A DNA stretch of 64,000 nt from Polytrichum commune. Taxonomy: Eukaryota; Streptophyta; Polytrichopsida; Polytrichales; Polytrichaceae. A program made the translations under genes and the position numbers. Of this stretch, positions 10,988 through 37,071 are shown piece by piece (the stretch's first letter is position 1; every line of letters begins with the position of its first letter). The notes under the pieces are model-generated. The model was given only the letters and a program-made list of their open reading frames with translations, had not been told where the DNA came from and searched no databases. The DNA lies in NCBI GenBank assembly GCA_950295325.1, contig OX485807.1, positions 2,482,501-2,546,500 on the forward strand, written 5' to 3'.

Positions 10988-11014
10988 ACACTATATTCGT
11001 TAAATTGAGACTTT
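10988..11014 (-). repeat. Left terminal inverted repeat of element II
   Basis: 27-bp terminus on the T side. The same sequence ends T-B at 61346-61372. Just inside it, GAGACTTTCTCTAGTCTC forms a short hairpin that is absent from the M-side terminus, so the two ends can be told apart. Confidence 0.9.
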
Positions 11015-11519
11015 CTCTAGTCTCAAATTAATATATGGATCAAACAACATGAAGATGCCTGAAACTATATTGTCAACAATCTCAAATATATTAAATGTTC
11101 TAATATCCCACACCTATGATGTGCGGACATAAGCACATATGGTAGAGCACTCAACACCAACTTCATCAACAAAAACACATTGGGTAGAGCACTCCAAACA
11201 AGTTTTACCCAAAAATATATATATAATGATTTCTATTATTAGCATGCTCCATAGAATATAGACATTGCAACATACAAAGTGCATGTAATAAATGCATATT
11301 TTTTCAATGGACAATTTAGTCCCAAACTTAATAAAAAAATGAACTTCACATTTGTATTGAAATATAGTAAATGGATATTCATCCAACTCCAAAACAATAT
11401 AGTATTCGTAAGTTCTACCCAAACTCTGCCCCAATTTTGAAGAGCACACATATGAGTAATATATGTTCGTAGAATTACTGTTTACACTGTAATCATGCTA
11501 ACACAATCCTACCAACTTC
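11015..11519 (-). repeat. T-side subterminal region of element II
   Basis: Non-coding 3' flank of T-A. On the minus strand it holds GTTTGGAGTGCTCTACCCAA, GTTGAGTGCTCTACC and GTTTGGGTAGAACTT motifs. Each resembles one arm, or both arms, of the family palindrome. The block is conserved downstream of T-B (60844-61345). Confidence 0.65.
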
Positions 11520-14166
11520 TCATTCAACGTGGGTTGCTTCTTCTGCGATCCGAGCAAGGTTGTCTTTTGCAAAAATTATGTACTTTTGAGGGATGGACAC
11601 TGATCCACTATGATTTTTCCGTGGTTTCCATGCTATGAATATGGAATCTGTATCTACCCAAGATGGACCGTGCTCAGAATCCACCTTCCACCGAAAGTTA
11701 GGGTTTGTATCCCAGCCTGTATAATGCCGAATCACATCTTCATTCCTTGCCATCGGTCGGTAGTACTCCACTTGTATTTGTCGAAAATGAGGGCTGGAAG
11801 TTACAAAATTGGGTTTGGACAAAGCTCTTGCCACCCACACTGGCTTCCCATATGTCTCGTCTCCAGGACGCAAAATGAGCATATATCCTTCATGACAATC
11901 CACTGCAATGCGGAAAGATGGTGGCGGACGACTACTAGCAGGCCCCACGTAATGGTCGTCCACATCAAACTCCTCTCGAACCTCTTCATTTCCCAAAAGA
12001 CTAGCCTCTGAAGCTTGTACATCGATTCGTGTTTGTGGCCAAAATCCATGCCTCAAAGTATGAGGGCTATCTTGGTGGAGGTCTACCAAGGCGGCACGAA
12101 CACGTGTCCAATAATGTATCCAACTCCCATAACGATGCCAACATGATCCGCCAACATCCGCTATCTTCAAACTCTCCCAATATTGTATGAAGCCTGATAT
12201 ACCTTTCAAAATATCCTCCAAATTCTTCATGGCTATTGGCTTACAAGGGCTAGGCTCCCCATCCGGTAACATGGTCTTCCCATCCGCATCCACGCGCCAC
12301 ACAAGAAGACCCTCCGGCGGGCTCCAGTCTTGTGTCGTGCACAACAACTTGTATTGCATGGCCGGGACACCATCGTCACGCATGTAGAACCGGAATTGTT
12401 GTGCCTTCGTATGCCCGATCAATCGGTGAGCTCCACTTCGAATATAAGGTTCTATAAATGCCTTGAAGTCTGGCACCTCCTCAATCATATGGGGGATGAC
12501 GGGAACGTTCTCCAAATCCATGTACAACTTCATCAATAATGGGATTGTAGGAAAATCCTCCTCCCGCAACTTCATGCTCCACCGCCTAAAAGATGCATCA
12601 ATATCATCGTGCGTGTGGCCTACCAATAGGAAGGACACAAAAACCTCCTTGAAAATGCCTTTCGCAACCAACAACGACCAATATGCAAATACATATCTGC
12701 TTTTATTGTCCTTGGTACAATTGTCCAATTGGACACGCAAAGTTGGAGGCAACTTCTTGGCAATCACGGGTTCATTGGGTGGCTCGGGCAACGAATGCAA
12801 GCATACATCTTTTCCATCCAACACCGCTTCATATAAAGGTGTTGAACCCGTGTTCTCAAATAACAATCCTGAAGAATAGGCTGGTGGTTTCTCTAAATCA
12901 CGTAAAAGCCTTGCAAATGATCCTATCGTGTGGTTTGAATCCGTTGGATACAAATCAAGAGCATAATGAGCAAACTTGACATCACCGTGTCCATGTGCAA
13001 TCATTCCTGCAATGCCAACCCAACGTGATTAGCATCTATGTATGAATAAACCATTATGAAGGAATCCATGTTCTCCAGTACATCACGGAATAAAAAACCA
13101 CAACATTTAGGGTATGTCATGACATTGTTTCGAAGTTCACCTGTAACCGATACAGGCAACTTAAAAAACCCATCCGTGGCCTTGATTCGATTTGCAAAAC
13201 ATGGGGAGGCTGTTTTGGCATGGTCCATTTTGTCATGGATGACCGTAAGAACCTCCAAGGGCCTGGAGATGGACAAAGCTCTATTTGTGTAGTAATCATT
13301 ACGGTGTGCCTCTTGCATGTTTACGTGCTTGAAATAGTTCAATTGATGCGCTCCATATGACTCGGTACCCATCGTGTGTGCATCCCGGAGGCGCTTCAAC
13401 TTCTCGCAATTAGAGCACCTGGCAAATTTGTCCCCTCGTCTTTTTGTAATGTATTCGCTAAAGTTTTGTTTCTTGATTGCACTTAATTTTGACAATGAAA
13501 TTGGCTCCAACCCAATCTTCTCGCCAACTGCATTCACGTCCAACAATATGTCTTTCCATTTTGTGCCTGTGTGAAGAACTTTCTCCACAACCTTTTCACC
13601 GGTTGTGAGTGTGCGTGTTTTGTGCGGCATTGCATCAGCAAGGGGGACAATGATGGTTGCTAGAGTTGCCGTTGCTTGCCTTGTTGCTTCCCTAGGTTTC
13701 TTTAAACCCACGTTCCCATGGTGACGGGACCGGCGGCCTTCCTTGGCATAAGCAGCTTGTCTATAGAAGTCCGCCTTCGACACACCGTAAATGGTGTACC
13801 ATGCCTTACAACACACGTCTATGCTTTCAATGGTGATGACCTTGCGACCCGTCCCATTCACATGTATTGCCCTATGGACATCAAGTTTTTTTGTGGATCT
13901 TAGACGAAAATCTCCAAGCCACATTTCTTCACGGATGGCCTTCAATTTATCCCTTGGAAACAATTGGCAACAACGATGCACACAACAATCCTTTGTGGCA
14001 ACTTCTCTTATGGACTCCTCCCCAAGCAGCCTTTGACGTTTACAATCAGTTGCAGATGGAGAAGGACGTGCCACAGTATCGTACTTTCTTTGACCCTTGC
14101 GTGGCCGCATGTTTGATTGCATTTCCTTTTCGAGTTGCATGTGTCGTTGCTCATGTTCACGCAAGC

Positions 14167-15771
14167 CAGGGTTGTCTATTGTGTCGTGACGGAGGGTAAT
14201 CCCGGCATAATGTCGTGCCGTCACGACACGTATCCGTCACGACATTATGCCGGATGCTGTCTTTATCCTGACGGACTTGAATTTTACCGATTTTTTTGTG
14301 TAATTACATTAACCCAATTCAGACACGTAGGATTTACAATGTCCACGTGTGATGACATGTCAGCAAAGTAAAGGTAAAGTGGGGAAAAATTTACTAGAGC
14401 CCGTCCGCCCCCCCGTCCGCCCCTGTTCCCGACCCCGTCCGCTCCGTTCCCAACCCCGTTCCCCCCCCGTTCCCCCCCCCGTTCCCCCCCCGTCCGCCCC
14501 TCCGTCCGCTCCCCCGTCCGCCCAAGTTTTTTTTTTTTTTTTTTTTTTCCCCCCCCCCCTTTCCCATCCGCCCCATTTTTTTTAAAAAATTCCCCCCCCT
14601 CCGTCCGCACCCCGTTCCCCCCCCCCGTCCGCCCCTCCGTCCGCTCCCCCGTCCGCCTCAGTTTTTTTTTTTTTTTTTTCCCTTCCCCGTCCGCCCCAAT
14701 TTTTTTAAAAAAAATTTCCCCCCCCTCCGTCCGCTCCCGTTCCCCCCCTGTCCGCCCCGTTCCCAACCCCGTCCGCCCCGTTCCCCCCCGTCCGCGCCCC
14801 GTTCCCCCCCCCGTCCGCCCCCGTTCCCCCCCCCGTCCGCCCCCGTTCCCCCCCTGTCCGCCCCGTTCCCCCCCCCCGTCCGCCCCAGTTTTTTTTTTTT
14901 TTTTTCCCCCCCCCCCCCTTTCCCCGTCCGCCCCATTTTAAAAAAAAAATTCCCCCCCTCCGTCCGCCCCCGTTCCCGACCCCGTCCGCCGCGTTCCCCC
15001 CCGTCCGCCCCTCCGTCCGCTCCCCCGTCCGCCCCATTTTTTTTAAAAAAAAATTCCCCCCCCCCTCCGTCTGCTCCCGTTCCCCCCCGTCCGCCCCGTT
15101 CCCCCCCCGTCCGCCCCGTTCCCCCCCCCGTCCGCCCCGTTCCCCCCCCCGTCCGCCCTAGTTTTCCCCCCCCCCCTTCCCCGTCCGCCCCATTTTTTTA
15201 AAAAAAAATTTCCCCCCCCTCCGTCCGCTCCCGTTCCCCCCCGTCCGCCCCGTTCCCAACCCCGTCCGCGCCCGGTCCCCCCCGTCCGCCCCCGTTCCCC
15301 CCCGTCCGCTCCCGTTCCCCCCGTCCGCCCCCGTTCCCGACTCCGTCCGCTCCGTTCCCCCCCCCCGTCCGCCCCCGTTCCCGACTCCGTCCGCTCCGTT
15401 CCCCCCCCCCGTCCGCCCCCGTTCCCGACCCCGTCCGCTCCGTTCCCCCCCCCCCACCCCCGTCCGCCCCACCCTCGTCCCCCGTCCGCCCCACACCCTC
15501 CTTAGTCGTTTTTTACTACTTTGATTTTAACAAAATGGTAAACAAAATGGCAAAATGATTTACCTGGCGCTAGGCATATCCACGACCACGTCGGCGTTTT
15601 CTGCCACATAGGACGCCACCTTGGCAAGAAGGTAAGTATTTTACCCACCCTAGTCCGTTCCCCCTATGTTGACCCTACGTGGACCCTATTGTGTCGTGAC
15701 GGAGGGGTCCGTCACGACACGACACGACATGACGGCACGACACCGTCATGACGTCGCGATAGACAACCCTG
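14167..15771. mobile_element. hAT-like non-autonomous element inserted in T-A exon 1
   Basis: Ends are CAGGGTTGTCTAT and ATAGACAACCCTG, a perfect 13-bp inverted repeat. They are flanked by an 8-bp duplication ACGCAAGC (14159-14166 and 15772-15779). The CAGGG start and 8-bp duplication are diagnostic of the hAT superfamily. The 1,605-bp element has no transposase. Its ends carry further inverted repeats built on GTCGTGACGG and CCGGCATAATGTCGTG, and its centre is a C-rich satellite. T-B has no insertion at this site, which confirms the empty-site sequence. Confidence 0.92.
14398..15500. repeat. C-rich satellite inside the hAT-like element
   Basis: Over 1 kb of degenerate GTTCCCCCCCGTCCGCCCC units interrupted by T/A-runs (for example 14527-14548 and 15034-15056), themselves repeated every 150-200 bp. 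On the minus strand it is extremely G-rich with runs of 5-9 G, so strong G-quadruplex potential is expected. Gly/Arg-rich open frames here are repeat translations, not genes. Confidence 0.9.
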
Positions 15772-16384
15772 ACGCAAGCTAACTCCATCAGTCGTGACAT
15801 TCCTCAATGGCCACCTGCGGAGGGAGAACCTATGAGTGGGATCCACCTCAGAAGGAACGAGTGACTCCAATATGACAATCCCAACGTCCTCGGTCCCAAG
15901 TGGATTTTGATCAATGCAATCTTGTGGATGGGTGTTACGACAGATACCCTCCGCCACAACAACCCCATTGTCATTAAGAAGTAACACATCCAAATTCACC
16001 CATGAAGCTCTTGAAAGCACGGCACACTCTGGAATGGGACAGTCCGGTACGGAACGCGAAGGTATATCGAAATGCTCTTCATCTGAACTCTCATCCATAG
16101 TAGCCTCCCCGACAATGTCTAGCTCTTCCTCAGATGCAGATGGCCAAGTGGCCATGTCTTCTCCAGACGAATACCCTCTTCCAGTATACCCATCCATTTT
16201 GCCTACACACATGAACATGGAACCTTGTAAAGAATTGACAAAAGCTATAGGGTCCAATAGAAAAACACAGAAACCTTATCATAACACATGTTGTATGAAT
16301 ATTATATCGATGGGTTCCAAAAAGATGGAGCGCACAACAGTTTATTCAGGATCCGTCTATGCACATCCCCATTGTGTGCATGAG

Positions 16385-17305
16385 GGTGGGTTTGGGTCGA
16401 GCAACCCAAACCTCGTGATAGGATGGGCCTGCTAATCCAGGCCCAACCCGTGACAAGGGTGGGTTTGGGTCGCTCGACCCAAACCTCACAATGGAGGTGG
16501 GTTTGGGTCGCTCGACCCAAACCTCACAATGGAGGTGTGTTTGGGTCGAGCGACCCAAACCTCGTGACAGGATGGGCCTGGTAATCCAGACCCAGCCCTT
16601 GATAGGGGTGGGTTTGGGTCGCTCGACCCAAACCTCGTGATAGGATGGGCCTGGTAATCCAGACCCAGCCCTTGATAGGGGTGGGTTTGGGTCGCTCGAC
16701 CCAAACCTCGTGACAGGATGGGCCTGGTAATCCAGACCCAGCCCTTGATAGGGGTGGGTTTGGGTCGCTCGACCCAAACCTCGTGACAGGATGGGCCTGC
16801 TAATCCAGGCCCAACCCGTGACAGGGGTGGGTTTGGGTCGCTCGCCCCAAACCTCACAATGGAGGTGTGTTTGGGTCGTGCGACCCAAACCTCATGACAG
16901 GATGGGCCTGGCAATCCAGGCCCAGCGCGTGATAGCGGTGGGTTTGGGTCGCTCGACCCAAACCTCATAATGGAGGTGGGTTTGGGTCGAGCGACCCAAA
17001 CCTCGTGACAGGATGGGCCTGCTAATCCAGGCCCAACCCGTGACAGGGGTGGGTTTGGGTCGCTCGACCCAAACCTCACTATGGGGGTGGGTTTGGGTCG
17101 AGCGACCCAAACCTCGTTACAGGATGGGCCTGCTAATCCAGGCCCAGCCCGTGAGAGGGGGTGGGTTTGGGTCGAGCGACCCAAACCTCGTGACAGGATG
17201 GGCTTGCTAATCCAGGCCCAGCCCGTGATAGGGGTGGGTTTGGGTCGCTCGACCCAAACCTCACTATGGGGGTGGGTTTGGGTCGAGCGACCCAAACATT
17301 CCGCA
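16385..17305 (-). repeat. Palindrome array in the 5' intron of T-A
   Basis: About sixteen family palindromes with centres CT, AG and TG, separated by spacers built from CCTCGTGACAGGATGGGCC and TAATCCAGGCCCA. The array lies between the T-A promoter and the acceptor before its first coding exon (TGTGTAG|GCAAAATG on the minus strand). Spacers are unrelated to those in element I (1-600) and T-B (56860-57600). Long open frames across it are repeat translations. Confidence 0.9.
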
Positions 17306-17700
17306 AATTCCGCCTTAAATTGCGGTAATCTTCCATATTCAGCTACGTGGATACTAATTGGAAGAATTCAGGCCGTGCATGGCTGTTGTAATTAGCTACT
17401 CATCAACGGATGCATACACGAACCTTGCACTCCACCACTACTTGAGAGAGCTTGCAACCATTTCAGAATGGAGAGATGAGAAAAAAGGAGCAAAGTTTGG
17501 GGGGTTTGGTACTTTATACTACCCGCCTCCGCCTTGGCCTTCCTCTTTGGATCCCTTTCCCGCCCGAACGTAAACCCTAAACCTAAGTTCAAACCTTCTG
17601 ACAGAATTTCCCGCTTCTTGTTGGTAATAGAGCATCCATATTTAGCTTGCCTCTTCGTGGCGCCAACCATCAAATGACCTTGGACAACTAACCTCCTAAT
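17306..17700 (-). promoter_or_regulatory. Promoter and leader of T-A
   Basis: On the minus strand: TTTGATGGTTGG, GAAGCGGGAAATT, GGCGGGAAAGGGATCCAAAG, then TATAAAG (17512-17518) and a leader containing GTGTATGCATCCGTTGATGAG. The order and sequences match T-B (56490-56830) and the element I remnant. Confidence 0.7.
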
Positions 17701-21528: not shown

Positions 21529-21574
21529 GTGATTTCTTCAACTTCTTTATGTGTGTCAATTTCTTTAGAGTTTC

Positions 21575-21649: not shown

Positions 21650-22400
21650 CGAGAGACGACCCAAACTTCAGTTTGAAACCCTAAAACACTAAACTCTGCA
21701 GCTGGTTTGGGTAGAGCGACCCAAACTCTCCAGCTGGTTTGGATCGTTCGACCCAAACTCTAAAGATGGTTTGGGTCGTTCGACCCAAACTAGTAGATGC
21801 TTTGGGTCGTGGGCGCCAATCCATCTGCAGAGTTTGGGTCGCTCGACCCAAACCATAAGCATTGTTTGGGTCTAGGGTTTAGCCAAACTCCGCATCAAAT
21901 GTTCATTTATAATTAATTTAATCATCATCTTGGGTGAATATCTAACCCTATCGACCCAATCCATCTGCAGAGTTTGGGTCGTTCGACCCAAACAGCGCAT
22001 GAAATGGTAATTCATAATTTAGGTAATCATCATCTTGGGTATGATCTAAGGCCATAGCCGATCATTCCATACCGCTACAAAGTTTGGGTCGAACAACCCA
22101 AACTCTGCGTAAATTTTTACTGCTTACGAACAATACTTACACTTATAAACAACAACTCAAACACCCAAGCAATAATGAAATGACCCACAACTAGAACAGT
22201 AGCTCGTGATGATTGTTGTATCCATGAACTTAAAGATTGGTTTTCGTAGCCAAATAATATATTATTCATTAGCCATTGTAGGCACAGGTTTGGGTCGTTC
22301 GACCCAAACCTGTGAAAAGTAACCCCATATATAAATGTTACTAAACCCAGACATAAGCCTATATGATTTGAAAGAGTTTGGGTCGCCCGACCGAAACTAA
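21650..22400 (+). repeat. Palindromes in the leader intron of M2
   Basis: About eight full or slightly decayed family palindromes are spread over 750 bp, for example near 21705, 21770, 21832, 21973, 22080 and 22288. The conserved pre-acceptor variant ending CGACCGAAAC lies at about 22377-22398. The first is the asymmetric GAGACGACCCAAAC half-site also seen in M1 and M3. Confidence 0.8.
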
Positions 22401-22668
22401 CATATGTATTTCTACTTGCAGATGCCCCCCAAGAAAAGACATGGAGAACGATGGTTCAAGCCGGCACCAGACGCGATCTGGCAGGAGCACGAAACTCCTA
22501 AAAACCAATCCTACGTAGCAAAAGAAGACCTTGTAATTGCATGGTCCTTTCTTGTAGTAAAGGCAACTCAATTCAAAATCCTCCTTGTTTTGAAGGTTGG
22601 CACGGAGGAGCAACACACATGGGATGCTTTGACGGGATGGGAGGTGGCATCAGTTCATGCTCTAGGAG

Positions 22669-23664
22669 TGTCGCAACCCTTGCTAGCCCTCCTTGACCAT
22701 CTTGCCAATTTTCATTTCCTAGCAAAGGTTACGAGCGCTAACCATTTGCATACCGCCATGCTAATGGTTAGCTCCTCTCACCCCGGACCTTATAGTTCAT
22801 AGGAGGGGAACCAACCCTCCTACTTTGCTTTCGGGACTCACCCCTTCAATCGCTAACCAACCCCTTTAATCGGTAACCAATCCTTAGATGTGGACTTCCA
22901 TCCATGGAAGTCCAATCTTATGTTGATCATCGCGTTGCCCGAGCAACACTACAACAACCCGAACCATACTAGGCAACTATGGCCTCACATTAGGCCAATG
23001 CCAATGGAGGCCGTGCCGTTCGGCCTCGGGTGGGTGAGGCCACACCACCTCACCCATATAAGCCTCTAGGACTTCACGCGGGGCCCCTACCCCACCGTCA
23101 ACCAACCTTTTGTCTCTCTACCAAGAGTTGGGGCCAAGTGGACATTTTCCTTTAGCTGCTGGGCCTAGAACCCCCCAGCAGCTTCAGACCATCATAACTT
23201 CCTTGTTTGATAATGGATCATAACAACAAACCACTCCATCTTCATCTACGTTTCACGTAGATGCCGATGAACTCCTCACTTGCCCCATTCGGGCAAGTTA
23301 TGAGGACGTTATGCCTCTTTGAACCTTGGCAGTCCCGGGAGTCACTCCCAGGCACTGCTGCACCAGGGCGCTGTCCCGGGACAGCGCCCCACTCAAATGG
23401 CCATAACTCCTAGCTCACACCTCCGATTGAGGTGTTCTTGAGCATTCTAGAATCGCCACGCCATGAGCTACGCATAGCTCATGGCCTTACCCTTGTGCCT
23501 CCTAGTCTTCGTGGGTGGGAGGCGTTCCCAACGCCCGGGGCCCTCACCCACACTAGGATCACTTGGGCCCTCTCACCAACGGCGCCACAAGTCCCGGGTG
23601 TCACTCCGGGGTCCCCCTTGTGCCCATGGTGTTTCGGGCACTCCTCATGGAGAGGTGCGCGACA
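22669..23664 (-). repeat. 3' LTR of R1
   Basis: 996 bp, TG...CA ends. The same family of LTR flanks R2 (44112-45082, 48387-49358) in the opposite orientation. Confidence 0.93.
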
Positions 23665-24670: not shown

Positions 24671-24877
24671 CTACCTCATGTTCCAAATGACGTCCACAAG
24701 GTGGGGAGGTGGCCTAATCACTTGTTTGTGATCGGGCCACAAGGTGTCGTCCTTAAATGGTTTTAGGAATGAGACATGAAATGTCGGATGCACTTTGATC
24801 TTGGGCGGTAATTCCAACTTATATATGTCGTTGAACACTTGTTCCACAATGGAAAACGGAGCTCCAATTTTGGACAT
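24671..24877 (-). pseudogene. R1 integrase C-terminal fragment
   Basis: The stretch IYKLELPPKIKVHPTFHVSF followed by LKPF is the conserved segment at the end of Ty3/gypsy integrases (KLPP..KVHPVFHVSLLKP in general form). Only this piece is readable; the sequence between it and the LTR is not clearly coding. Confidence 0.8.
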
Positions 24878-25084
24878 GAACTTTGGAGTGAGGCCTTCCG
24901 GCTAGGTGAAGTTGTTCACATTCAACAACACCTTTTGGCCTACCTCATTCTCCACTTCGCGTCTTCCGGCATTGACTTGCACTCCGTAGCACCTTCGGGC
25001 TTTCTCCACCAACAACTTGGTCATCTCCAAGACTTGTTTACGATCCTTGGCCAAGTCCTCACCATCTTGGTTAAACTCTAGTGT

Positions 25085-25890
25085 TCAATGTGCCCCCTCG
25101 AGAGCTAGGTTAATAGGTTGGAGCGCATCCACTTCATAAGCCACCACGAAAGACCACCCCTTGGTAGCCAAGTGTGTGGCTACCTTGCAATTACACTCCG
25201 CTCGACCCACATAGTCCGCCCAATCTCCTTGGTCCGCCCCCACCAAGTTCCTCAAGTATTGCTTCAAGACTCCATTCACACGCTCCGTTTTCCCATCCAT
25301 TTGGGAATGCAAGGCCGTGCTAAACCTTAGTTTCATTCCGACCTCCTTAGAGAAATGCATTGAAAATGCACTTGTGAACTTTGGATCTTGATCCCACACA
25401 ATCACTCTTGGCAACCCGTGGTGCCTCAACCATCCTTTGAGAAAAGGCTATGCGGTCTCCAACGCGGCGGCGGTTCCCACAATCGGCACCATGTGTGCCA
25501 ACTTGGCAAACCGCTCTACCATCAACAAGATGGTATCATACCCATGTGACTCCGGCAAACTTGTGATCAAATCCATGCACATAGTATGCCATGGTGCCAA
25601 CGGGATAGGCAACGGTTGCAAGAAACCGCCTTGCTTTTGGTAAGAGGCTCGGTTCACTTGGCACTTTGTTCACGCCTTCACAAAGTGGGTTATATTCTCT
25701 TTTATGCACCGCCAATGGTACCTCTTTGACACCATTCTATGGCGGCTTTTTCTTTCTCCTCTATGGCCGGCAATAAGACTATCATATTCCTCCTTCAAAA
25801 CCGATAGCCTCAACTTGCCTTGTGTCACATACACCCAACTTTGCTTGCACTTGAACAATCCGTCCACCAACTTAACCTCTTTGAGCACCT
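25085..25890 (-). pseudogene. R1 integrase fragments
   Basis: Broken frames in series: the zinc-binding part (25670-25888, ending in GHRGERKSRHRM), then CMDLITSLPESHGYD (25448-25657), then the catalytic part (25085-25429) with WDQDPKFTS and QMDGKTERVNG. The three catalytic acids of the DD35E core are therefore present but in different frames. Confidence 0.85.
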
Positions 25891-26137
25891 TGCTCTTGCG
25901 AAGCTCACCTAAAAGTTTTTGTGCTTTGGGGTAGTAAATTTACCCCTCCCGTATCTTGCATCACAAGTTTCCTTTGCCGGCACACATTAGCCACAAGGTT
26001 TGGATGGTTCTCATTGCTTGGAACTCTTCCGGTCTACTTCGCGCATCCGGCACCACATTTCCACGGTCCGGTTTGTGGATCAAATCCACCTTCATAAGCG
26101 CCAAACTATCATGCCAACGCAATGACTTGGCGCTCAC

Positions 26138-27089
26138 TTGCGCTTGAATGTCAAAATTCTTTTAGGACACATTGCCCATGTAGACCTTTGCTTTGAGCGA
26201 CCCCAAATAGTATCGCAACATCTTCAAGCAATGCACTACGGCAAAGAAGTTGTTTGGCATGAGTTGGTTGTCTTCTTTGACAACCATCGAGCTTCGTGCT
26301 CCCATATGCAATGGCCATCCATCTTACATCAACAATCCGCCATTGGCAAAGTCATTCACCCCCGTATGCACCTCAAAAGGTTTGTCAAGCTCCGTGAACT
26401 TGAGGACGGGCGGCGAAGAGAACTCGGTCTTAAGCTCCCCAAAGACTCGTGACAAACATCATCCCACTATTGGGATAGCCATTTCTTTCACAAGTCGAAC
26501 CATCGAGCTTCATGCTCTCGTATGCAATGGCCATCCATCTTACATGAACATCCGCCAATGGTAAAGTCCTCGCCCCCCGTATGCACCTCAAAAGGTTTGT
26601 CAAGCTCCGCGAACTTGAACACGGGTGGTAAAGAGGAACTTGGTCTTAAGCTCCTCAAAGACTTGGTGGCAAGGCTCATCCCACTCTTGGGATAGCCATT
26701 TCTTGCACAAGTTGGACAAGCTTCTACAACCATGGAGCTTAATGCTCCCATAAGCAATGGTCCTCCATCTTGGATCAACATCCGCCAATGGTAAAGTCCT
26801 TTGCCTTCATGTGCACCTCAACATGGTCATGAAAACCCGAAACTTAACCACATCTTGTGAAGAGAACATTTTCTTGAGCTCCCCAAAGGCTTGGTGACAA
26901 GGCTCATCCCACTCTTGGGATAGCCATTTTTTCCAACATGTTGACTAAGGTTCTAGCAACCTTAGAAAAACCATGAATGAAGTGGTGGTAGTAGTTGGTT
27001 AGGCCAACAAATGACCTAAGCCCTTTTCTTGAATCAAGGGCCAATTCTCTTCTTGGATTGCCTTGACATTCTTCATGTTTGTCCACCAA
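26138..27089 (-). pseudogene. R1 reverse-transcriptase tail and tandem RNase H-like segments
   Basis: LRSFVGLTNYYHHFIHGFSK (26904-27089) is the typical segment after the reverse-transcriptase palm. It is followed by several repeats of WLSQEWDEPCHQVFEELK and KPFEVHTGGEDFTIGGC, the start of RNase H, each about 200-230 bp. The repeats are nucleotide-level tandem duplications, also seen in R2. The palm with its YxDD motif is missing. Confidence 0.8.
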
Positions 27090-27245
27090 CTTCCTTTGTC
27101 ACCACATACCTCAAGAACTCAATCTCTCGTTGAGCAAAGTTATTTTTCACTCCTTGGCGGTAACTTTTTGGGCAACACATTGGTGAATACATCCTTGTAT
27201 CTCACCAACATCCCACCAATGTGATTTGGAGGAGGCCCATCTTTC

Positions 27246-28110
27246 CTAGCCTCTCCATACATTCCTTGGAGTTGCTCCAATGGAACCACGACCATTATGT
27301 TTTCTATTTTTCAGTTGGTCCATTAAGACCAAATTCACCTTGGGTCCTCCTACCATAGGAGTCCTTGTCAATTTGAACTTCAATTCTTTGCCATTATGAC
27401 ACATCATAATGCACCGCAAGCTCACCGGCTTGCACCTCATATCTATCATGTGAGTTTCAAAGTAGGCGGCCTTCACAATGACATGCATTTCATCTATTTC
27501 ACATGGTGTGAAATTTTGGACAAAAATCCAATGTCCCACATTGAAAGGTTACATGCATCGCAGCCTTCTTTGTCTCATGCGGTTCGCCCTTTCCGAACCG
27601 CACCTTGGTGGGCTTGTTTTCTCTATCAATCGGCAAGCCCCAACTCCCTTGTGAATTTTGGGCTCAAGAAGGAGTGGTAGCCTCTTTGTCAACATATGAG
27701 ACATTTCTCCCATTCATTGAGCCTCAAGGTACAAAAGATTTGGCCTTGGCTTAAGGCTACTAGCCTTGGCCACAATGCCATCGTCTTACATTCGGTCCTC
27801 AGCAACTTGGCTTGGCTTGGTCCGCAAAGCCAACTTTAAACATTTCGTCCGCGGAACAAATTGGTTTGGTGCCACAAAACCAATTTCTAATAGTTTGTCC
27901 GCAAAACAAACATGTTTTGCCTTGGTAGCACAAAGCCACCTTCCCACACTCCGTCCGCGGCACGAACATGAATTGCCTTGATAGGACAAACCCACCTCCC
28001 AACATTCCGTCCGCGGCACAAGTATGATTTGCTTTGGAAGCATAAAGCCACCTTTCAACATTCCGTCCGCGGCTCCAACATGTTTTGCCTAAGTAAAATG
28101 GACCAAACAA
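27246..28110 (-). pseudogene. R1 gag/protease-region remnant with 60-70-bp tandem repeats
   Basis: 27246-27539 is an open frame without a recognisable protease active site (HVIVKAAYFETHMIDMRCKP); the same stretch is present in R2 (46352-46576). 27790-28090 is made of tandem units GCCGCGGACGGAATGTTG...GGTGGCTTTGTGCTACCAAG, with five visible. They are translated in short frames as CWEVGLSYQGN-type repeats. A structural or packaging role is possible but unproven. Confidence 0.55.
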
Positions 28111-28754
28111 TTTGCACTCATTTCTTTGGGACCTACTTTTGCTAAAGCCACTTGTGGTGATGCGCCGCCAAACTTCTCTTTGGGACCATCGGCTTCAATG
28201 CTCTTGCAAACTTGATGGTCCCCACCATGTCCTCAAGAAGCCTTGGGGACTTAAACAAGGCATCCACCACCCGCTTTTAAAACCCCACCTAAAAGGATGC
28301 ATTTCTTAGAAAGTTCGTCCGTTTTAGGTGTATCCTTCATTTGTGCATTTGAATAGCGCACATAGGCCTTAAGAGGCCCCGGGTGCCTCATTAGCACCAA
28401 ATTCATTCCAACATCAATACCTTCCAAGCATTTCGAATTGGAATTTCAATCCAACATTAATGCCCTCCAAGGTTTTGGGTGCTTTCGGTATTCTAGGCCC
28501 CAAATGTTTTTTGAGGTTTGCGGGAGCCCTTTTCAAAGCACTCCTCCATTTTCCTTACCAAATCCACCCTCATGCCCACCATTGTCATTGGAACCAATGG
28601 TATGGTCAAATTCCACTTGCACATGATCCTTGTTCCAATTTGAGCCTCACAACCTTTTGGAAACCCCGGGCTCACCATCATAACCCGCATTTATGATAGC
28701 CATGTTTCCCTCAAAGTGCGAGCTCAAAACTTGGAACCCTGCTCTGATACCAAG

Positions 28755-29750
28755 TGTCGCAACCCTTGCTAGCCCTCCTTGACCATCTTGCCAATTTTCA
28801 TTTCCTAGCAAAGGTTACGAGCGCTAACCATTTGCATACCGCCATGCTAATGGTTAGCTCCTCTCACCCCGGACCTTATAGTTCATAGGAGGGGAACCAA
28901 CCCTCCTACTTTGCTTTCGGGACTCACCCCTTCAATCGCTAACCAACCCCTTTAATCGGTAACCAATCCTTAGATGTGGACTTCCATCCATGGAAGTCCA
29001 ATCTTATGTTGATCATCGCGTTGCCCGAGCAACACTACAACAACCCGAACCATACTAGGCAACTATGGCCTCACATTAGGCCAATGCCAATGGAGGCCGT
29101 GCCGTTCGGCCTCGGGTGGGTGAGGCCACACCACCTCACCCATATAAGCCTCTAGGACTTCACGCGGGGCCCCTACCCCACCGTCAACCAACCTTTTGTC
29201 TCTCTACCAAGAGTTGGGGCCAAGTGGACATTTTCCTTTAGCTGCTGGGCCTAGAACCCCCCAGCAGCTTCAGACCATCATAACTTCCTTGTTTGATAAT
29301 GGATCATAACAACAAACCACTCCATCTTCATCTACGTTTCACGTAGATGCCGATGAACTCCTCACTTGCCCCATTCGGGCAAGTTATGAGGACGTTATGC
29401 CTCTTTGAACCTTGGCAGTCCCGGGAGTCACTCCCAGGCACTGCTGCACCAGGGCGCTGTCCCGGGACAGCGCCCCACTCAAATGGCCATAACTCCTAGC
29501 TCACACCTCCGATTGAGGTGTTCTTGAGCATTCTAGAATCGCCACGCCATGAGCTACGCATAGCTCATGGCCTTACCCTTGTGCCTCCTAGTCTTCGTGG
29601 GTGGGAGGCGTTCCCAACGCCCGGGGCCCTCACCCACACTAGGATCACTTGGGCCCTCTCACCAACGGCGCCACAAGTCCCGGGTGTCACTCCGGGGTCC
29701 CCCTTGTGCCCATGGTGTTTCGGGCACTCCTCATGGAGAGGTGCGCGACA
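28755..29750 (-). repeat. 5' LTR of R1
   Basis: 996 bp. It is preceded on its inner side by the tRNA-Met primer-binding site at 28741-28752. An open frame runs from inside this LTR into M2 exon 1 (29518-31131) by chance of frame; it is not evidence for a fusion gene. Confidence 0.93.
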
Positions 29751-29755
29751 AGGAG

Positions 29756-30837
29756 AGCACGTTGACGTCATCCTGGAAAACTCTTCTCTGGAAAATGTGC
29801 ACATGTTCATGCATGAGCAAGCCGAGCCATTCGATCCGGTATACGTGAAGGAATCCTGCGCTGAGCCAGACATTGTTAAACCGGATACAATCTTCATAGA
29901 TGCGATCATTTCAAACACGAAGGTTGCAACCAGGTTCACTAAACTTAACCAGGCAATCAACGCAATAAACAAGACCCAGCAAAGCAAGTCAAAATCTCAA
30001 CAAGCTGTGAGGCGCAAGGCGACTGCTGAAGAGGGCGCAGGGTCGTCAAGACCTCAAACAGTGAGGAAGCCCCGACCGGTTCCAGCTGACTCGAGGAGAA
30101 CAACACCTACGGCAACTCCTGCTGATAGTGAAACACCGACGCCATCACAAAGCCGGCAGACGACACCATCTAAGAGGCCGAGAGAGTCAGTATCTGCCAT
30201 GACAGATGAGCCTGTTTCACCGGAGCTACGTATGCCCAAGCCCGGGGAAGGAGTGGAGCCATCGGAGATCCAGAAAATACTCAACAATTTCGACACCAAG
30301 TGTTTACATTGTTTTTTCATGGGCAGAGAATTCAAGTTTGATGTCAACATCGCACAATGCCACCTAGCGCCACCAGAGAAGTGCGTTCGGGCAAAGGAAG
30401 ATGCGTATGTTGATTGGTTAATCGCCCAGATGGTGAGCGACCAGTTTAAACATGATAGGCAGACTATTGTTGTCATGCCTCAGGGACACAAAAGAATGCC
30501 TACACCGGATATGTGGCCTTCTATAGAGAAAGGCGATTTTTGGCTGATTGACGGTCAGCACAGTGTTGAAGCTTCAAAGAAACTTCAACTGATGACGGAG
30601 TGGAATGATCCCAATGGTCTAAAGGAAAAATTGAAGGTATGGAAGGTATTGGTCGTGTGGTCGGACGACGAAACCCGGCTGAGCGATATCTCCCGCTATT
30701 TCAACATGAATAACAAGAAGCGGGCATATCAAGCTTCTTGGATTAGGAACATCATGGCATCGCGGGATGTGTGGGAGTTCTACGGCCGGCCTCCCAAGGA
30801 AAGGGAGAATGCAAAAGACAAGAATCCAAAGTGGGAG
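29756..30837 (+). other. ParB/DGQHR-like domain of M2 (rest of exon 1)
   Basis: The first ~85 residues of this part continue an unrecognised N-terminal domain (EHVDVILENSSLENVHMFMH). Then comes a linker with many Thr-Pro and Ser-Pro pairs (VRKPRPVPADSRRTTPTATP) and a conserved fold containing MGREFKFDVNIAQCHLAPPE, VVMPQGHKRMPTP, FWLIDGQHSVEASKK and WKVLVVWSDDETRLSDISRY. The GDFWLIDGQHSVEA segment, followed by a strand and an ISRYFN helix, is what ParB N-terminal and DGQHR domains show (I/V-x-G-x-H/R-R-x-x-A). Ser replaces the usual Arg of DGQHR. Known members bind DNA and, in ParB, CTP; which applies here is not visible. Confidence 0.6.
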
Positions 30838-31162
30838 GTGAGCATTGTTTCTCAAACAGAGTTTGGGTCGCTCGACCCAAACTTTGTGTTTCTTCATACA
30901 GTTTGGGTCGCTCGACCCAAACTTTGGGTTTCTTCATACAGTTTGGGTCGCTCGACCCAAACTTTGCGTTTCTTCATACAGTTTGGGTCGCTCGACCCAA
31001 ACCTTGTGTTTCTTCATACAGTTTGGGTCGCTCGACCCAAACCTTGTGTTTTAGTTTGTGTTTTAGTTTGTGTTTGTCTACGCAGTTTGTTGTTCATCAT
31101 TTTTCTTCTTTGTTTGGAAACAACATATTGAGAATTAACACGCATTCTATGCTCTTGTGCAG
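30838..31162 (+). repeat. Intron 1 of M2 with a palindrome array
   Basis: Phase-0 intron holding five palindromes, all centre CT, separated by TTTGTGTTTCTTCATACA-type spacers of about 18-20 bp. Two short GTTTGTGTTTTA repeats follow. Spacers share nothing with those of M1 or M3 intron 1. Confidence 0.9.
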
Positions 31163-32494
31163 CTTTTCAAATACCAAATGATAAACAAGTTCTCCTCAAT
31201 TGACAATTCAAGTCACAAGCAAAAGAAGTACAATGAGCTAAGAGGAGAGATCTACTTGATTACATCATCCGACATGGTTTGGCAGAAGTGGAAGACAGTG
31301 TTTGAGAAACACGAGACAGGGGATCTCATGGATCCTGACACATGCAACCTCTTCAACTCGTCCTCTCGATTCAAGGCGATGAAGCCTCTCATGAGAGAAT
31401 TCTTTAGAAGTCTGCAGGGTCTTTCGGAGGCGGAAATGGGGAAGGCGGCAACGCACATCTTGCACAACAACCCGACCCCTAAGAGATTTTGGGTGTACCC
31501 CAAAATAGTCTTCACCAAGCCGAAATCCTTTGTTCCTTCATGCTACACAATGAAGGAATGGGCGGAGAATAGGAAGAAGAAAACAACGATCGTCTAGGAG
31601 CTGCAGAAGCTAATCCCGGAAAAGAACATTTTTGTCGATGACGAGGTGAACGAGGTGAACTGGAGAGCGTTCAAGGCTGAATACAACTTCACCAGTGCAT
31701 CCATGGCAGCTCTGATCAGGGAGGCAGGAGAAGACTTCCTAAAGTCAAAACTGGTGAAGGGTGGGAAGAACCTGGCTCTTCCAGAACACTCGACGCGTGC
31801 CTTCTCAAACTTTATAAAGGAGAAGAAGATTGTAAGTTTTGAGGGGGATGCGCATTTCAACCTTGTCGCTTTTGACCCTATTAAAATCCAGGGATGGCCC
31901 GGCCTTGATTCCAGGAAAGAAATACGAGTAAGAGCAGTGGACCGGTTCCCCTTTGGTATAATAGACTTCCGGAGCATTCCTGGGAGTACGTTTGAGGGCA
32001 CAATGGGTACACCCTTCTACGAGCCCTTCATGTCGAAGTTCGTGGAGTATGCAAGCCCTAAGCTTAGGGAGGTCGATATGTGGCTGTGGATAGTAGAGGA
32101 TAGGAGAGCAGAGCAGGTGTATGAAATTGTGAGGAAATTGCAGCCTGAGTATGCGGTGTCTAAGTCTCACTACATTGCTGCACCGGCGGAGGGGGTGTAC
32201 ACGACACTAAAGGACAAGAAAACCAAAGTCATGAATTTGTTGTGCTTGTACTTTGTGTTCAAAGCAACCTTGCTGAAGGTGGAGAACCACCCCATAACCC
32301 GGATGCATAAACTATTCCAAGTTCCAGAAGGCCTGGGCGCAAGTAAGTCCCTCTACGACGAGGCAAAATATGCCATATACCATTCGGACAAGTTGCGGAT
32401 GGAATTCTATCTCCGAATAATGAGGGCCTTGACGAGAAGAGGGGACTGTATATTCAACGTCTTCGGCGGCACCAAGCCCGTCTTCGCTGGCATG

Positions 32495-32788
32495 GTAAGC
32501 TCCTTACCATAATTGTTTTCATAGTTTGGGTCGAGCGACCCAAACTAACACCGATGCTAGTTTGGGTCGCTCGACCCAAACTAACACTGATGCTAGTTTG
32601 GGTCGCTCGACCCAAACTAACACTGATGCTAGTTTGGGTCGCTCGACCTAAACTAACACTGATGCTAGTTTGGGTCGCTCGACCCAAACTATAACCTTTG
32701 CAATTGATATTAGGTCTTGTATGTACTTCCCCTTTTCGGTGGAATCACATGTTATGCCATATAATAACATCTGGTGGGATTTCTGCAG
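32495..32788 (+). repeat. Intron 2 of M2 with a palindrome array
   Basis: Five palindromes (first centre AG, then CT) separated by TAACACTGATGCTA spacers, in a phase-0 intron from ATG|GTAAGC to TTCTGCAG|ATG. Confidence 0.9.
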
Positions 32789-34782
32789 ATGCTGGGGCTG
32801 AACGTGTACAGCTATGTAGACCTTAATGACATCCAATTCTACAAGGCCCAAAAATCATTGGCGAAGAAGATGGATATACTAGACTGGATCCCTGGGAGCT
32901 ACGCCGAGGAGACTGTTGAAGGGGGTGAGAGCCCGCTGGATAAGGCGAGGCGTGTCAACCCTGAAGAATTGGCCATAAGGGTTCCAGTTGCTGTACCAGA
33001 GCCTCTGGTCCAAGTGCATCCAGGCACATCCTCTCGGCGACCGCGTGACGAGGAGGGGGAGGAGGAGGAGGAGGATGAGGAGGTGGAAGAGGAGGAAGAA
33101 GAGGCTAAAGTGGAGGGCGAGGTCGAAGAAGGGGGAACAGGCTTCACTCAGGAATCTGAAGCCCCTCAACGAAAGAAGGCAATGCGGGTAGCAACTCCAC
33201 AAAGTAAGTTGGTGCCCGTCCTGACGGTTGATGATGCCCGCGACATGTACTCCAGGGATGCGACTGCCGCGTTCAGGGAGAGGAGGAAACTAAAAGGCAA
33301 GAAACTCTATGGCGACTATGCCATCGAGGAGACAATTGCCATTAGCAGCGAAGACGAGGACGACATGGAGCTCGCGAAACGGCTCAGGTCGGACCCTCCC
33401 TCTCCAGGTGCCTTCGCAGGGATGGTGAAGGTGAAGCCGGAAGTCCTCACCGTGCAAGAAGCCAACGAGAAGATGTTAAGGGACGAAGAACAACGCGTCC
33501 GCTTGCAAAAGGCCGCTGCTGAAGAACCCTCAGTGCGGAACGAAGTGGCAGAGCTAAGGGCTCTCTTATTGGAGCAAGAGCGACTGCGGGCATTGGCGCA
33601 ACCTCCAACTAGCGCGGACTTGATCACGCAAGTGATTCGAGGCATGTGGGCGCAGGGTTTGGTGGTGGCTCCCCCGGGCTCATTTCCACACTTGCCCCCC
33701 GGCTTCCCTCCCTAGAACATTCCTCCGCAGCCCGTGCCGCAATCCTCCTTCAGCTTTCAGCACATGGTTCCCCCCCACGTCCGTCCGTATCCGCCGGTTC
33801 AACAAGCGGATGACCCCAATATATGGCGCCTTCCCGGGTCTTCTAGACCTGTGACCCCCCCACCACTTCGGCCGCCCCTGGTGATCCCCCCGCCCCATCA
33901 GCAGGACGACCCCCACATGTTTGGGTCGTCCGACCCAAACCCCCCCCCCCCCCTTACAGTGCAACAAGGCCAATCTCATGATGCACGAGAGTTTGGGTCG
34001 GCCGACCCAAACCCCGTTACCGCTCAGTCTTCAATGGACCAGCATGGGTCTGAAAGAGACACACCCATGCCTGATGTTGAAGGTCCTCGAGGGCCTGGTG
34101 ATACCTCTACTCCTATCCCAATCGATGAACCTATGCATGATGCACATGCGGAGGTTGGGTTAGGAGAAGGTCCTGACACTGAGCGCTTGCAGGAGAGGGG
34201 TGCTGACATCGTCGGAGAAGGCGGTGGCGAGAGAGAACGACAAGCGGAGGCGGTGGAGGCTTCCATGGCGTCCAGGCATGACCAGGGAGAGGTAATACAC
34301 TGAGACCTCCTCAGTTTGGGTCGCTCGACCCAAACTCCTGGTCTATTGTCTTGTTGCCGTGGTCGTGTCCCCCCTAGCTAGGAGGAACTGCCCCCACCCC
34401 GTCCATCCGCTCTCGCATCCCTTCAGCCCCCCCCCCCGCGACGATCACTAACGTCGCCCGTCCCACGATTTTACTCGAACTTGGAGGCGTGCACACAATT
34501 TTGTAGATGTTGAATTAGGATAGTTTGAACGGATCGTTCAACGCGGCTTCGCACCCCTAGGCATTTTGTACATAGAGCATTGCAAACAATAAAATTATTA
34601 TTTTGTGCCCTTATGTTTGTTTTCGTGTTCAAATGTATATTTTTTCCTCTTGCCCCCTCTTGCATTTGTATGGCCGCCTATGCATAGTGGTTCTTGTATT
34701 TTTCACAGAAAATATTGTATTCACTTTAAGTGGACATAGCATGACATAGTCTTCCCCCGCCTTATGTCGCTCGTCTCCACAG

Positions 34783-35595
34783 GGATCGGAGCATAGCGTC
34801 GCGGCTCCCCGCCGGGCCTCTCCAAGAAGCGAGGAAGGTAGCGCGATGGTCCCCCCCATTTTACCCGTTCCACCTTTGCCGCCTAAGACCCGGTTCCTGG
34901 TGTTAGACCTCAACGGGGTCCTCGTCCAATGCGTTCATTGCCCGAGGACCCCCACGGTGCCCTTTTGCAAGCCCGAGGACGCGAATTACGACGGGCCGCC
35001 CACGTTCATAAAGAGCAAGCTAGTTCACCTCCGCCCGTGGCTTCGGACCTTCCTCCAGATCGCCCAACAACGATGGTGGGTGGTCGTGTGGAGCTCCATG
35101 AAGGCCGAGAACACCAATGCAGTCGTGGAGTTCATCTTCAAGGGCATCGAGCCCCCCTGCATGGTCCTAGCACAGGAAGCCTGTAGAATATTGTACACAC
35201 CGGACGGCAAAGTCGTCAAAAAACCAAACAACCCCGCTTCCCCCCAATACCTCAAGGTCTTGAAGCCCATTTTTTGGGACCAGCGTCCGTCATTGATAGG
35301 TGTCCCCTACGACGTCCGTCCCACCCGGGAGAACACGCTCATGGTGGACGACAGCGCCGCAAAGAACATGTTGAACCCGACGGCCAACTTAATAGTTTGC
35401 CCTACGTGGACGGTCGAGAAGGTCCGGGACCGATTTTTGTTAGACCTTAGTAAATACCTCCAGGCGCTCAGGGGAAGCGGACTACCTGTAAACAATTTTG
35501 TTAGGAATAATCCGATAGGCGAGAGATACTTGGATCCACGAGACCATTTGTACAGAGAGTTGTTCTCTCACGCGAAATTTAACAAGCTCATTTGA
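34783..35595 (+). CDS. FCP1/NIF-like phosphatase exon of M2
   Basis: Exon 4 starts after TCCACAG and reads in frame from exon 3: GSEHSVAAPRR, a Pro-rich stretch, then the domain. Motifs: FLVLDLNGVLVQC (FCP1-type DxDx signature with the second Asp replaced by Asn), HLRPWLRTFLQIA, WVVVWSSM, KPIFWDQRPSL and LMVDDSAAKNM. FCP1-like enzymes remove phosphate from Ser/Thr-Pro sites, classically in the RNA polymerase II tail. DLNG variants are common in plant relatives, and loss of the acid/base Asp makes activity doubtful. The M protein has its own Thr-Pro-rich linker, so self-regulation is conceivable. The frame ends at TGA 35593-35595 unless the in-frame donor at 35488 is used. The exon is missing from M1. 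Confidence 0.8.
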   Translation, partial: GSEHSVAAPRRASPRSEEGSAMVPPILPVPPLPPKTRFLVLDLNGVLVQCVHCPRTPTVPFCKPEDANYDGPPTFIKSKLVHLRPWLRTFLQIAQQRWWVVVWSSMKAENTNAVVEFIFKGIEPPCMVLAQEACRILYTPDGKVVKKPNNPASPQYLKVLKPIFWDQRPSLIGVPYDVRPTRENTLMVDDSAAKNMLNPTANLIVCPTWTVEKVRDRFLLDLSKYLQALRGSGLPVNNFVRNNPIGERYLDPRDHLYRELFSHAKFNKLI

Positions 35596-35732
35596 GGCAG
35601 CACGTGTGTGTGTGTATGTGTGTATGCGCCCGCCCACTTTGTGTAATATATGCTTCATATGTATCTTGATTTTCACGCGCTCTAGCAAACCCTCTTCCTT
35701 TGGGTTTTGTTTCGTTTCCTTTTTTGCGCCAG

Positions 35733-36524
35733 CGTTTGGAGCCCTCGATTGACATCGTCAGCGAGTCAGACTTGGGGAGCTTCTTCTACGAGACCGTTTA
35801 CGACGCCGCGTCAACCATTGACTACTCCAAGGAGCCTATTGACGCCGGCGTCGTCGATAGCCCCCCACCCAAGCAAATCTTACGGCGATCTCCGTCCCCG
35901 TCGCCGCTCAAGGGCATAAATCGCAAATGCGTCCGGACATCCCCCTCTCGGCCCGGCGGAAGTATTACACCTCAACGGCGGCTGCGGATGGACGCACGGC
36001 CAACGAAGAGTGGAACCCTTCCTATTCCTTTGCGGGACGCCTTGCCCCTCCTTGCCAACTCCGATGGGAACGCCCCCGGTGACAAGGTGAACCCCCCCCC
36101 CCTCTCTAAAACATGGTTAACCGCGCATTACAATCATTTTGCACTTAAAAAATGATCGTGTGACACGTTTGGGTCTTCCTCCCTAAACTAACACATGTGG
36201 TCTTGCAATGACGCGTTGCAGGTTGCTCCCACCCGTAAACCTATGCGGTCTAGTGCGTCCATCGAGTTCGAGCGTATGTACGCCATGACCAGAAATGCGA
36301 GACAATCCACTTCATCGTATTCGAATTCTTCGACGTATATTTCGGGCGGCCGACGGACTCCAAAATGTCTTATGGATGGCGGTCACCCCAAGAATGGCTA
36401 TAGTCGCGGGGCGGAGATTTTCAGGAATGTTGAAGCAATGCGAGCAAAAGAAGCCGCAGCAAAAGAAAAAGAGGCAAAAGAAAAAAAAGCAAAAGAAAAA
36501 GAGGCAATCTCCAAGGCTAGATAG
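35733..36524 (+). CDS. C-terminal exons 5 and 6 of M2
   Basis: Exon 5 (35733-36086, 118 codons) follows the T-rich acceptor TTTTTGCGCCAG and contains SESDLGSFFYETVYDAASTI. Exon 6 (36222-36524) contains ARQSTSSYSNSSTY and ends in Lys/Glu/Ala repeats (AAAKEKEAKEKKAKEKEA), a likely charged helix. No known domain. Exon 5 is 354 nt in all four copies, which argues for a real coding exon. Confidence 0.7.
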
Positions 36525-37044
36525 GCCATAGTAGGCGTAGGGTTTTGGGCCATAGGCAACATCATTTTGGGTCGCACTATCCAATGTATGTGTGGTGTTA
36601 GCATGCTATGCATTTTACATGCCATACTTTGTATGTTTTTTTTGCAATAATATAAGTGTCACATGATTTCCCCTTCAATATGGTCCAAGGTTTGGATTGC
36701 CCTAACTAAACCATCACAAATATGAGTTTGGAATATTTTGTATGTTATATTATATTGGTTCACATAGTTCCCCTTCAATATGGTCTAAGGGTTTGGAGTG
36801 CCCTACCTAAAACATATTCATACAAGATCTCATATTTTGTGTGCGATAATATGAATGTTTTAAGATTTCCCCTTCAATTTGGCCTAAGGTTTGGATTGCT
36901 CATCCTAAACAATCCCAAATATGAGTTATTAATGGGGTCCTTGTTCTAAATACCCGACACAAAGTGTTCGCATCTTACAACTTTCTCCAATATGTGTTCC
37001 ATTTATCCTTGTTCTTATTTATGTGAATGTCTCAAAATGCCCAA
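36525..37044 (+). repeat. 3' subterminal region of element II, M side
   Basis: Contains GTTTGGATTGCCCTAACTAAAC-like repeats (about 36690, 36790 and 36890) that look like decayed family palindromes. Nothing coding. Confidence 0.7.
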
Positions 37045-37071
37045 AAAGTCTCAATTTAACGAATATAGTGT
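37045..37071 (+). repeat. Right terminal inverted repeat of element II
   Basis: 27 bp, perfect inverse of 10988-11014, followed by TAA (37072-37074) as at the left end. Confidence 0.9.

Follow-up and report, generated by a model that had tools for sequence, protein, structure and literature searches.

Lineage-specific palindrome arrays in a genome-wide DNA transposon of Polytrichum commune carrying a DUF7869 gene and a methyltransferase-fold gene

To our knowledge, only a few cases are known in which a transposon encodes a protein that relieves its own DNA of silencing. In VANDAL elements of Arabidopsis, tandem motif arrays lie upstream of the transposase gene and within introns of other genes, motif and protein change together between lineages, and the VANC protein induces loss of methylation in its own family (PMC5735166). 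The consulted part of a further paper links TnpA, encoded by En/Spm, to activation and demethylation of its own element (PMC10398659). Here, an element of comparable layout is described from a 64,000-bp stretch of the Polytrichum commune genome (C5:2482501-2546500 of 408 Mb in 64 contigs), hereafter the window. It is a real, genome-wide DNA transposon with a gene pair: T, whose product is transposase-like and matches DUF7869, and M, encoding a giant protein with a ParB-like motif, a methyltransferase fold and a NIF domain. It resembles VANDAL/VANC, as far as the consulted text describes that system, in combining a putative transposase with a proposed regulator and in having lineage-specific tandem arrays, both next to the gene of the former and within introns of the latter. 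These arrays of a spaced palindrome, which were missed by an earlier description prepared by a model from the letters of the window (the sequence-only reading), and their lineage specificity constitute the main finding: three palindromes go with three M lineages in one genome.

The palindrome of the lineage present in the window (clade A), TTTGGGTCG-NN-CGACCCAAA, was found at 91 window sites with at most one mismatch (0 expected, 100 shuffles). The sites belong to four element copies, namely, A (24), B (37), C (20) and D (10), and are located upstream of both genes, within M introns 1 and 2, and in M exon 3 and just past it, whereas none of the 91 lies in the long terminal repeat (LTR) retrotransposons, the T coding parts, the 37.6-42.7 kb insert, the gap or copy E. 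Ten inward-facing pairs of termini, 16.0-18.1 kb apart and selected by the spacing of the terminal inverted repeats (TIRs) only, were read whole, and each of these ten whole copies contained 13-38 perfect palindromes. A scan of the same copies for any perfect palindrome of 9 + 2 + 9 nucleotides showed that the clade A site alone recurs, one other site being present in a single copy. Agreement across the arrays of four copies, two of which (E06 and E10) represent one subfamily, was 98% for the arms, 37% for the central NN and 34% for the flanks; it should be noted that the sites were picked at no more than 3 mismatches, which favours the arms, and that the centre, ignored in this choice, behaves like the flanks. 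Palindromes are concentrated near the starts of both genes and in M introns. The array started about 3.8 kb from the T-side end in seven of the ten copies and farther from it in three, and the outer 3.7 kb (T side) and 2.6 kb (M side) of all ten were palindrome-free save for one weak asymmetric site with 3 mismatches, 480-650 bp from the M-side end. Copies differ in the length and spacing of their arrays; within a single copy the central NN tends to have been homogenised. In the whole genome the clade A palindrome was counted 9,731 times (reversed control, 0); among the first 100 listed sites, 63 were within two whole copies and 18 were 6-16 kb from a single listed terminus. No stretch with this palindrome was found in viral contigs.

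The relation between palindromes and M lineages was traced through relatives of M exon 2, of which 81 proteins were obtained in one search and 43 in another, with one common to both. Since proteins of this exon often run on into the next intron, that intron is readable as a peptide. The A palindrome was present in 13 of 42 M proteins of clade A (60-91% identity) and in 0 of 35 of clade B (about 36%), and the B palindrome in 17 of 35 proteins of clade B and in 0 of 42 of clade A. A blind scan of translated introns, covering all 65,536 half-sites of 8 nt with centres of 0-3 nt and 20 shuffles, was applied to tails of at least 6 residues (25 in clade A and 28 in clade B; P0161 was placed in neither clade, and P0234 and P0242 were omitted from the clade C tails). 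The top half-site in clade A was TTGGGTCG with a 2-nt centre (11/25 tails; shuffled maximum, 1), and in clade B it was TACGAACG, likewise with a 2-nt centre (16/28; shuffled maximum, 2), followed by TTACGGACG (11/28), whose codons overlap with TTACGAACG. In a tree of M proteins of 430-560 residues (90 rows), 11 A-labelled and 15 B-labelled rows stood on separate, fully supported sides; since near relatives cluster easily, the weight rests on the two sequences being different and each symmetric.

The DNA confirmed this relation. At least 92 matches to clade B M were obtained in this genome. Of the 20 best loci among them, 18 contained TTACGAACG-NN-CGTTCGTAA and none the clade A palindrome; the genome count of TTACGAACG-NN-CGTTCGTAA was 3,737 (reversed control, 0). 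A third palindrome, TTACGGACG-NN-CGTCCGTAA, a one-step symmetric variant, had 1,310 genome copies (reversed control, 0). A blind test of the seven clade B2 tails gave ties at 2; TTACGGACG was taken from the clade B scan and then tested in DNA. Within the listed part of contig C1, M exons of the P0174 type had their own-lineage palindrome at no more than about 90 bp on both sides (2/2), and M exons of the P0185 type had a TTACGGACG site at no more than about 80 bp (3/3); the match lists of the two, compared by eye, had no common place on this contig. M proteins of clade C (P0195-P0243, including moss) hint weakly at a further palindrome, CAGCTCGA (3 of 23 tails) or TAGCTCGA (2 of 23), the centre being 1 nt long.

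The termini delimit the element. Six copies of ACACTATATTCGTTAAATTGAGACTTT were found in the window, at 10958, 10988, 37045, 56443 (2 mismatches), 61346 and 62517 (0 expected, 100 shuffles), which agrees with the places of the 27-bp termini named in the sequence-only reading, and the shared identity of M2 and M4 was likewise seen, by self-comparison of the window, to stop at a terminus. Genome-wide, 1,053 forward and 1,054 reverse termini were counted at no more than 3 mismatches (reversed control, 0), and the 100 places listed in this census were all exact. Besides the ten whole copies, ten further inward-facing pairs, 4.8-17.3 kb apart, were read at their ends. The TIR was 28 bp long (AACACTA...TAGTGTT) in all 20 pairs, and the 4-bp flanks were identical in 20/20, compared with 4 matches in 380 unrelated left-right cross-pairs. 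By these duplications the 27-bp frame is off and has to be replaced by one of 28 bp, and the letters of the proposed 3-bp TAA duplication, although present, are partly bases of the element. In the corrected frame copy B is flanked by GTTA (10983-10986) and AATA (37073-37076), that is, there is no duplication; copy B therefore does not represent a clean insertion, and TAA arises by coincidence from the frame chosen. The genome-wide search that had been proposed for matching flanks with T and M between the termini yielded both, the former in every pair and the latter in every whole copy. Family copies are large (16-18 kb). No description of the element, of DUF7869 or of such a gene pair was found in the literature searched, a scope outside which Repbase and subscription papers lay, so that a repeat already catalogued but unexplained is possible; the part consulted of a paper on transposable elements of Physcomitrium names no such element (PMC7466625).

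T and M are regularly paired. In copy B, T1 (minus strand) and M2 (plus strand) are divergent between 10988 and 37071, as had been read earlier, although the 26-kb length given to this copy is inflated by a 7.1-kb LTR retrotransposon and a C-rich insertion in T1; in 10/10 whole copies, both T pieces and all four M pieces were present as divergent genes. For the second lineage, 83 T matches were scored out of 1,865 candidates (query P0002) and 91 M matches out of 1,191 (query P0185; 62-66% identical to the query). A divergent M lay no more than 25 kb from T in 59 of the 83 listed T matches (median gap 9.7 kb), the remainder comprising 0 with a convergent M, 2 with a same-strand M and 22 without M among the matches listed; with shuffled M places, any M was nearby for a mean of 0.93 of the 83 T (maximum 4). 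At a clade B1 locus examined with 11 probes, T was found in 4 adjacent probes, divergent from M.

Both T and M are under purifying selection: between copies, the median ratio of nonsynonymous to synonymous substitution rates (dN/dS) in the two T pieces was 0.17 and 0.14, and the four M pieces gave 0.03, 0.06, 0.15 and 0.20. These medians include only pairs with a computable dS above 0.15, some M pairs being saturated (pairs used: T_c 12/21, T_n 30/55, M_mt 16/21, M_parB 21/45, M_nif 31/45, M_post 7/10), and pieces with a stop or less than 93% coverage were dropped, which favours open copies (kept of 11 copies: T_c 7, T_n 11, M_mt 7, M_parB 10, M_nif 10, M_post 5). All exons are open in at least one copy.

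The Pfam match of T1 (Table 1) bears out its assignment to DUF7869, and in the T pieces and a moss relative only this family was above the Pfam cut-off. Relatives of T with 40-51% identity were found in Physcomitrium and Ceratodon, none were found in viral contigs, and no sequence relative in the PDB was convincing (best E 0.22). The structure model of T is RNase H-like, its nearest structure being Mos1, a weak match that barely exceeds the background level expected in searches of this type; it is weakly suggestive of a transposase. T would catalyse the movement of the element, as the sequence-only reading had proposed. T1 is interrupted by a 1.6-kb C-rich low-complexity block (about 14167-15771) that copies D and E06 lack, and five residues are missing from T2 (copy D) directly after QLDN. 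Near the M-side end of the ten whole copies, a half-palindrome (TTTGGGTCG and a diverged partner arm; 10 occurrences, 480-650 bp from the end) and GTTTGGATTGC repeats (180-390 bp from it) were observed, and both are candidate T sites.

M is a four-exon protein of roughly 1,600 residues, with a probably disordered stretch between the methyltransferase fold and NIF. Its N-terminal part has a ParB-like DGQHS motif; the ParB domain assigned to it earlier was not recovered, as the E06 exon and a moss relative gave no ParB match at E up to 10 against Pfam profiles, the only ones used, and no PDB sequence relative of the ParB-like exon of M1 was convincing (best E 0.62). Exon 2 has the fold of beta-class DNA amino-methyltransferases, with the motif-IV position preceding motif I (positions by eye from the alignment), and in this it is similar to CcrM, M.BceJIV and MTA1, from which it differs in having DFRxIP for DPPY, in being borne by an element and in its association with a NIF domain. 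The catalytic motif IV of this class is (D/N/S)PP(Y/F/W); in M, DPPY is replaced by DFRxIP(G) at D267, where D is the sole invariant residue among these in a 71-row alignment. Of the methyltransferase proposed earlier, the fold is thus retained, but an active enzyme is not supported, motif IV being degenerate. The FCP1-like part is confirmed by matches to PF03031 (E 1.6e-15 in the window and 8.4e-14 in E06). Its motif reads LDLNGVLV in M2, M4 and E06 and departs from DxDx(T/V), the catalytic motif of NIF/FCP1-like phosphatases. Two relatives of M were found in Physcomitrium, and in one of them a GQHS motif precedes the methyltransferase part.

The difference in palindromes between lineages suggests that an element-encoded protein recognises and regulates the DNA of its own element, and the combination of conserved arms, a free centre and symmetric change points to a pattern selected by a dimeric DNA-binding protein. 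The explanation that we favour, and regard as somewhat probable as a whole, is an autonomous cut-and-paste family that is moved by T and in which M is a self-recognition regulator of the palindromes of its lineage. T, the DUF7869 protein whose core is predicted to be RNase H-like, would move the element (28-bp TIRs, 4-bp duplication); a dimer of M, or M together with T, would bind the two 9-bp arms of the palindrome of its own lineage; the bound arrays upstream of T, upstream of M and in M introns would mark the DNA of the family; and this marking would keep the element expressed against host silencing or set the dose of transposition. By analogy with VANC, it is most likely M, possibly with T, that marks the DNA of its own family. 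The lineage-specific palindromes lend indirect support to the earlier proposal of a regulating or shielding role for M; in the favoured explanation M would be the binder and anti-silencing the probable effect. A more specific form, a lineage-private addressing system carried by a superfamily of plant DNA transposons, in which the giant methyltransferase-fold protein reads the arrayed palindrome and each lineage activates or modifies only its own copies, may be right or wrong with about equal chance. In that reading, to which the same balance applies throughout, the VANC principle would have been invented a second time, independently, by wholly unrelated proteins that use a palindromic code resembling parS.

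Several observations weigh against the self-recognition explanation. Neither palindrome was found in 29/42 clade A and 18/35 clade B proteins, many of them because their tails are short, and 2 of the 20 best clade B loci lacked the TTACGAACG palindrome. Among the first 100 listed clade A sites, 19 had no listed exact terminus within 20 kb; these either belong to copies whose ends have been altered or lost, or lie outside elements. There is mild CpG depletion, nearly unchanged when palindromes are masked, which by itself is no sign of escape from methylation. Both enzyme domains of M may be inactive, since motif IV is without PPY and the NIF motif reads DLNG. Finally, the palindromes are tracked by T lineages as well: each of the P0002-type T exons within the listed part of C1 (3/3) has a TTACGGACG array starting 2.1-2.3 kb upstream, and T is a possible binder of the palindromes.

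In one alternative, M would repress its own element or control its copy number, or would modify adenine or cytosine in the arrays, rather than counteract silencing. This is rather unlikely, as the degenerate motif IV speaks against a modifier and a dedicated repressor would fit poorly with strong purifying selection across high-copy lineages. It is also unlikely, and slightly more so, that T is what binds the palindromes, which would then act as internal enhancers or as assembly sites for transposition, with M as an accessory following the same lineages. The arrays do begin just upstream of T, and T lineage and palindrome coincide in the three listed cases and in the one clade B1 locus probed; however, the outer zones in which synapsis would be expected are site-free save for the one weak site, and this avoidance of both ends speaks against end synapsis, the sites are regular in M introns and exon 3, and T is better conserved between lineages (P0002 is 65% identical to the window T) than M (about 36% in clade B). 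Improbable is a third alternative, according to which the palindromes have no function and are mere tandem repeats or a small parasite-like repeat that slippage and conversion have spread through non-coding DNA able to tolerate it: the variable lengths and spacings and the homogenised centres would suit it, but the arms are far more alike between arrays than the flanks, they change symmetrically between lineages, and the LTR retrotransposons, T coding parts and 37.6-42.7 kb insert received none of the window sites. That the palindromes act as RNA hairpins in splicing, stability or small-RNA control, and not as DNA sites, is very improbable, for although many of them are within M introns, the large arrays upstream of T and M are outside coding parts, exon 3, which is coding, contains this symmetric site as well, and a 2-nt centre makes a poor RNA loop.

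Although the element appears to work like VANDAL/VANC, it is not a member of that group, because both the transposase and the regulator differ: T belongs to DUF7869 and is not a MULE-type transposase, and M is without the VANC domains DUF1985 and DUF287 in Pfam scans (the four exons of M in E06 gave neither at E up to 10). In addition, the motif here is a spaced palindrome of 20-22 bp, whereas that of VANC is a 9-bp non-palindrome, and loss of methylation is described for VANC (PMC5735166). With En/Spm (CACTA) elements it shares the letters CACTA within the terminus and, as proposed here, an element-encoded protein acting on its own element, whereas its ends read AACACTA, its motifs are not subterminal and no CACTA transposase was matched in Pfam. 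CACTA elements make a 3-bp duplication, and membership among them is ruled out, despite these letters, by the 4-bp duplication in 20/20 pairs. KDZ elements have an 8-bp duplication and a KDZ transposase; they are ruled out by the 4-bp duplication and by the absence of a KDZ match for T. Sola or another superfamily with a 4-bp duplication, compared on duplication length alone, agrees in this length. Mos1/mariner, which duplicates TA instead of 4 bp, gave only the weak structural match and no sequence match.

If the self-recognition explanation is true, the element would be a second, unrelated self-de-silencing system, and the presence of three palindromes and three protein lineages in one genome would allow a direct test of how a DNA-binding protein and its target co-evolve. 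It could also explain the persistence of high-copy 17-kb elements under host silencing and would be a source of new sequence-specific DNA-binding and epigenome-editing modules. The element gives a context to DUF7869, an unnamed family.

Self-comparison of the window revealed five element pieces: A (to 10985), B (10987-37072), C (to 56470), D (to 61372/3) and E (from 62516). The features are listed in Table 1. The T of copy A is expected to the left of the window, beyond the sequence read, and the T side of copy C also lies outside it. The homology of copy D to B (reverse strand) extends to about 20 bp from the terminus of C; C therefore appears to have landed in D, the other ends of both being out of view.

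Table 1. Coordinates of the element copies, genes, palindrome arrays and inserted retrotransposons in the window
Feature	Position	Strand	Remarks
Copy A, M1 side	1..10985	+	array 54-548; M1 4678-10013; right terminus 10958-10985
Left 28-bp TIR, copy B, T side	10987..11014	+	frame set by 4-bp duplications
T1, DUF7869 transposase-like	11520..16275	-	DUF7869 match E 8.1e-43
Array upstream of T1	16391..17296	.	16 sites at no more than 1 mismatch
Cluster upstream of / just before M2 coding start	21706..22396	.	8 sites at no more than 1 mismatch
M2 gene region	22397..35595	+	exon limits approximate
M2 exon 1, ParB-like motif	~22397-22667 + 29751-30850	+	
LTR retrotransposon in M2	22667..29750	.	foreign to element, palindrome-free; 7.1 kb, 998-bp LTRs 100% identical
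Palindromes, M2 intron 1	30862..31041	.	5 sites
M2 exon 2, methyltransferase fold	~31163-32512	+	fold taken from M4 exon
Palindromes, M2 intron 2	32525..32688	.	5 sites at no more than 1 mismatch
M2 exon 3	~32768-34303	+	
Palindromes, M2 exon 3 and just past it	33920..34334	.	33920, 33992 (coding FGS.DPN) in exon; 34315 just past it
M2 exon 4, NIF domain	~34750-35595	+	
Right 28-bp TIR, copy B, M side	37045..37072	-	
Copy C, M4 side	37073..56470	+	palindromes 42874-43895, M4 introns, exon 3; right terminus 56443-56470
LTR retrotransposon splitting M4, copy C	44112-49359		
Copy D, T2 side	56471..61373	+	array 56863-57586; T2 58110-60843; terminus 61346-61372
Copy E, M-side end only	62516..64000	-	

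M1 was without the NIF exon present in M2 and M4 (window 9549-9587), a deletion derivative that persists. The stretch 62515-64000 is an inverted identical copy of 35588-37073 in copy B (1,486 bases, up to the window edge), so that either the M end was copied very recently or the repeat is a feature of the assembly. A 709-aa open frame in copy C (38565-40694) gave no Pfam family above the cut-off and was ruled out as a gene of the family, having no match in the ten whole copies or in B. The LTR retrotransposons in M2 and M4 are related, have LTRs that are 100% and 97% identical, respectively, and lie in opposite orientation in nearly the same exon, as if this spot attracted such insertions. A perfect 24-bp palindrome, GGGCGCTGTCCCGGGACAGCGCCC, was present in each of the four LTRs of these retrotransposons (e.g., 23366-23389).

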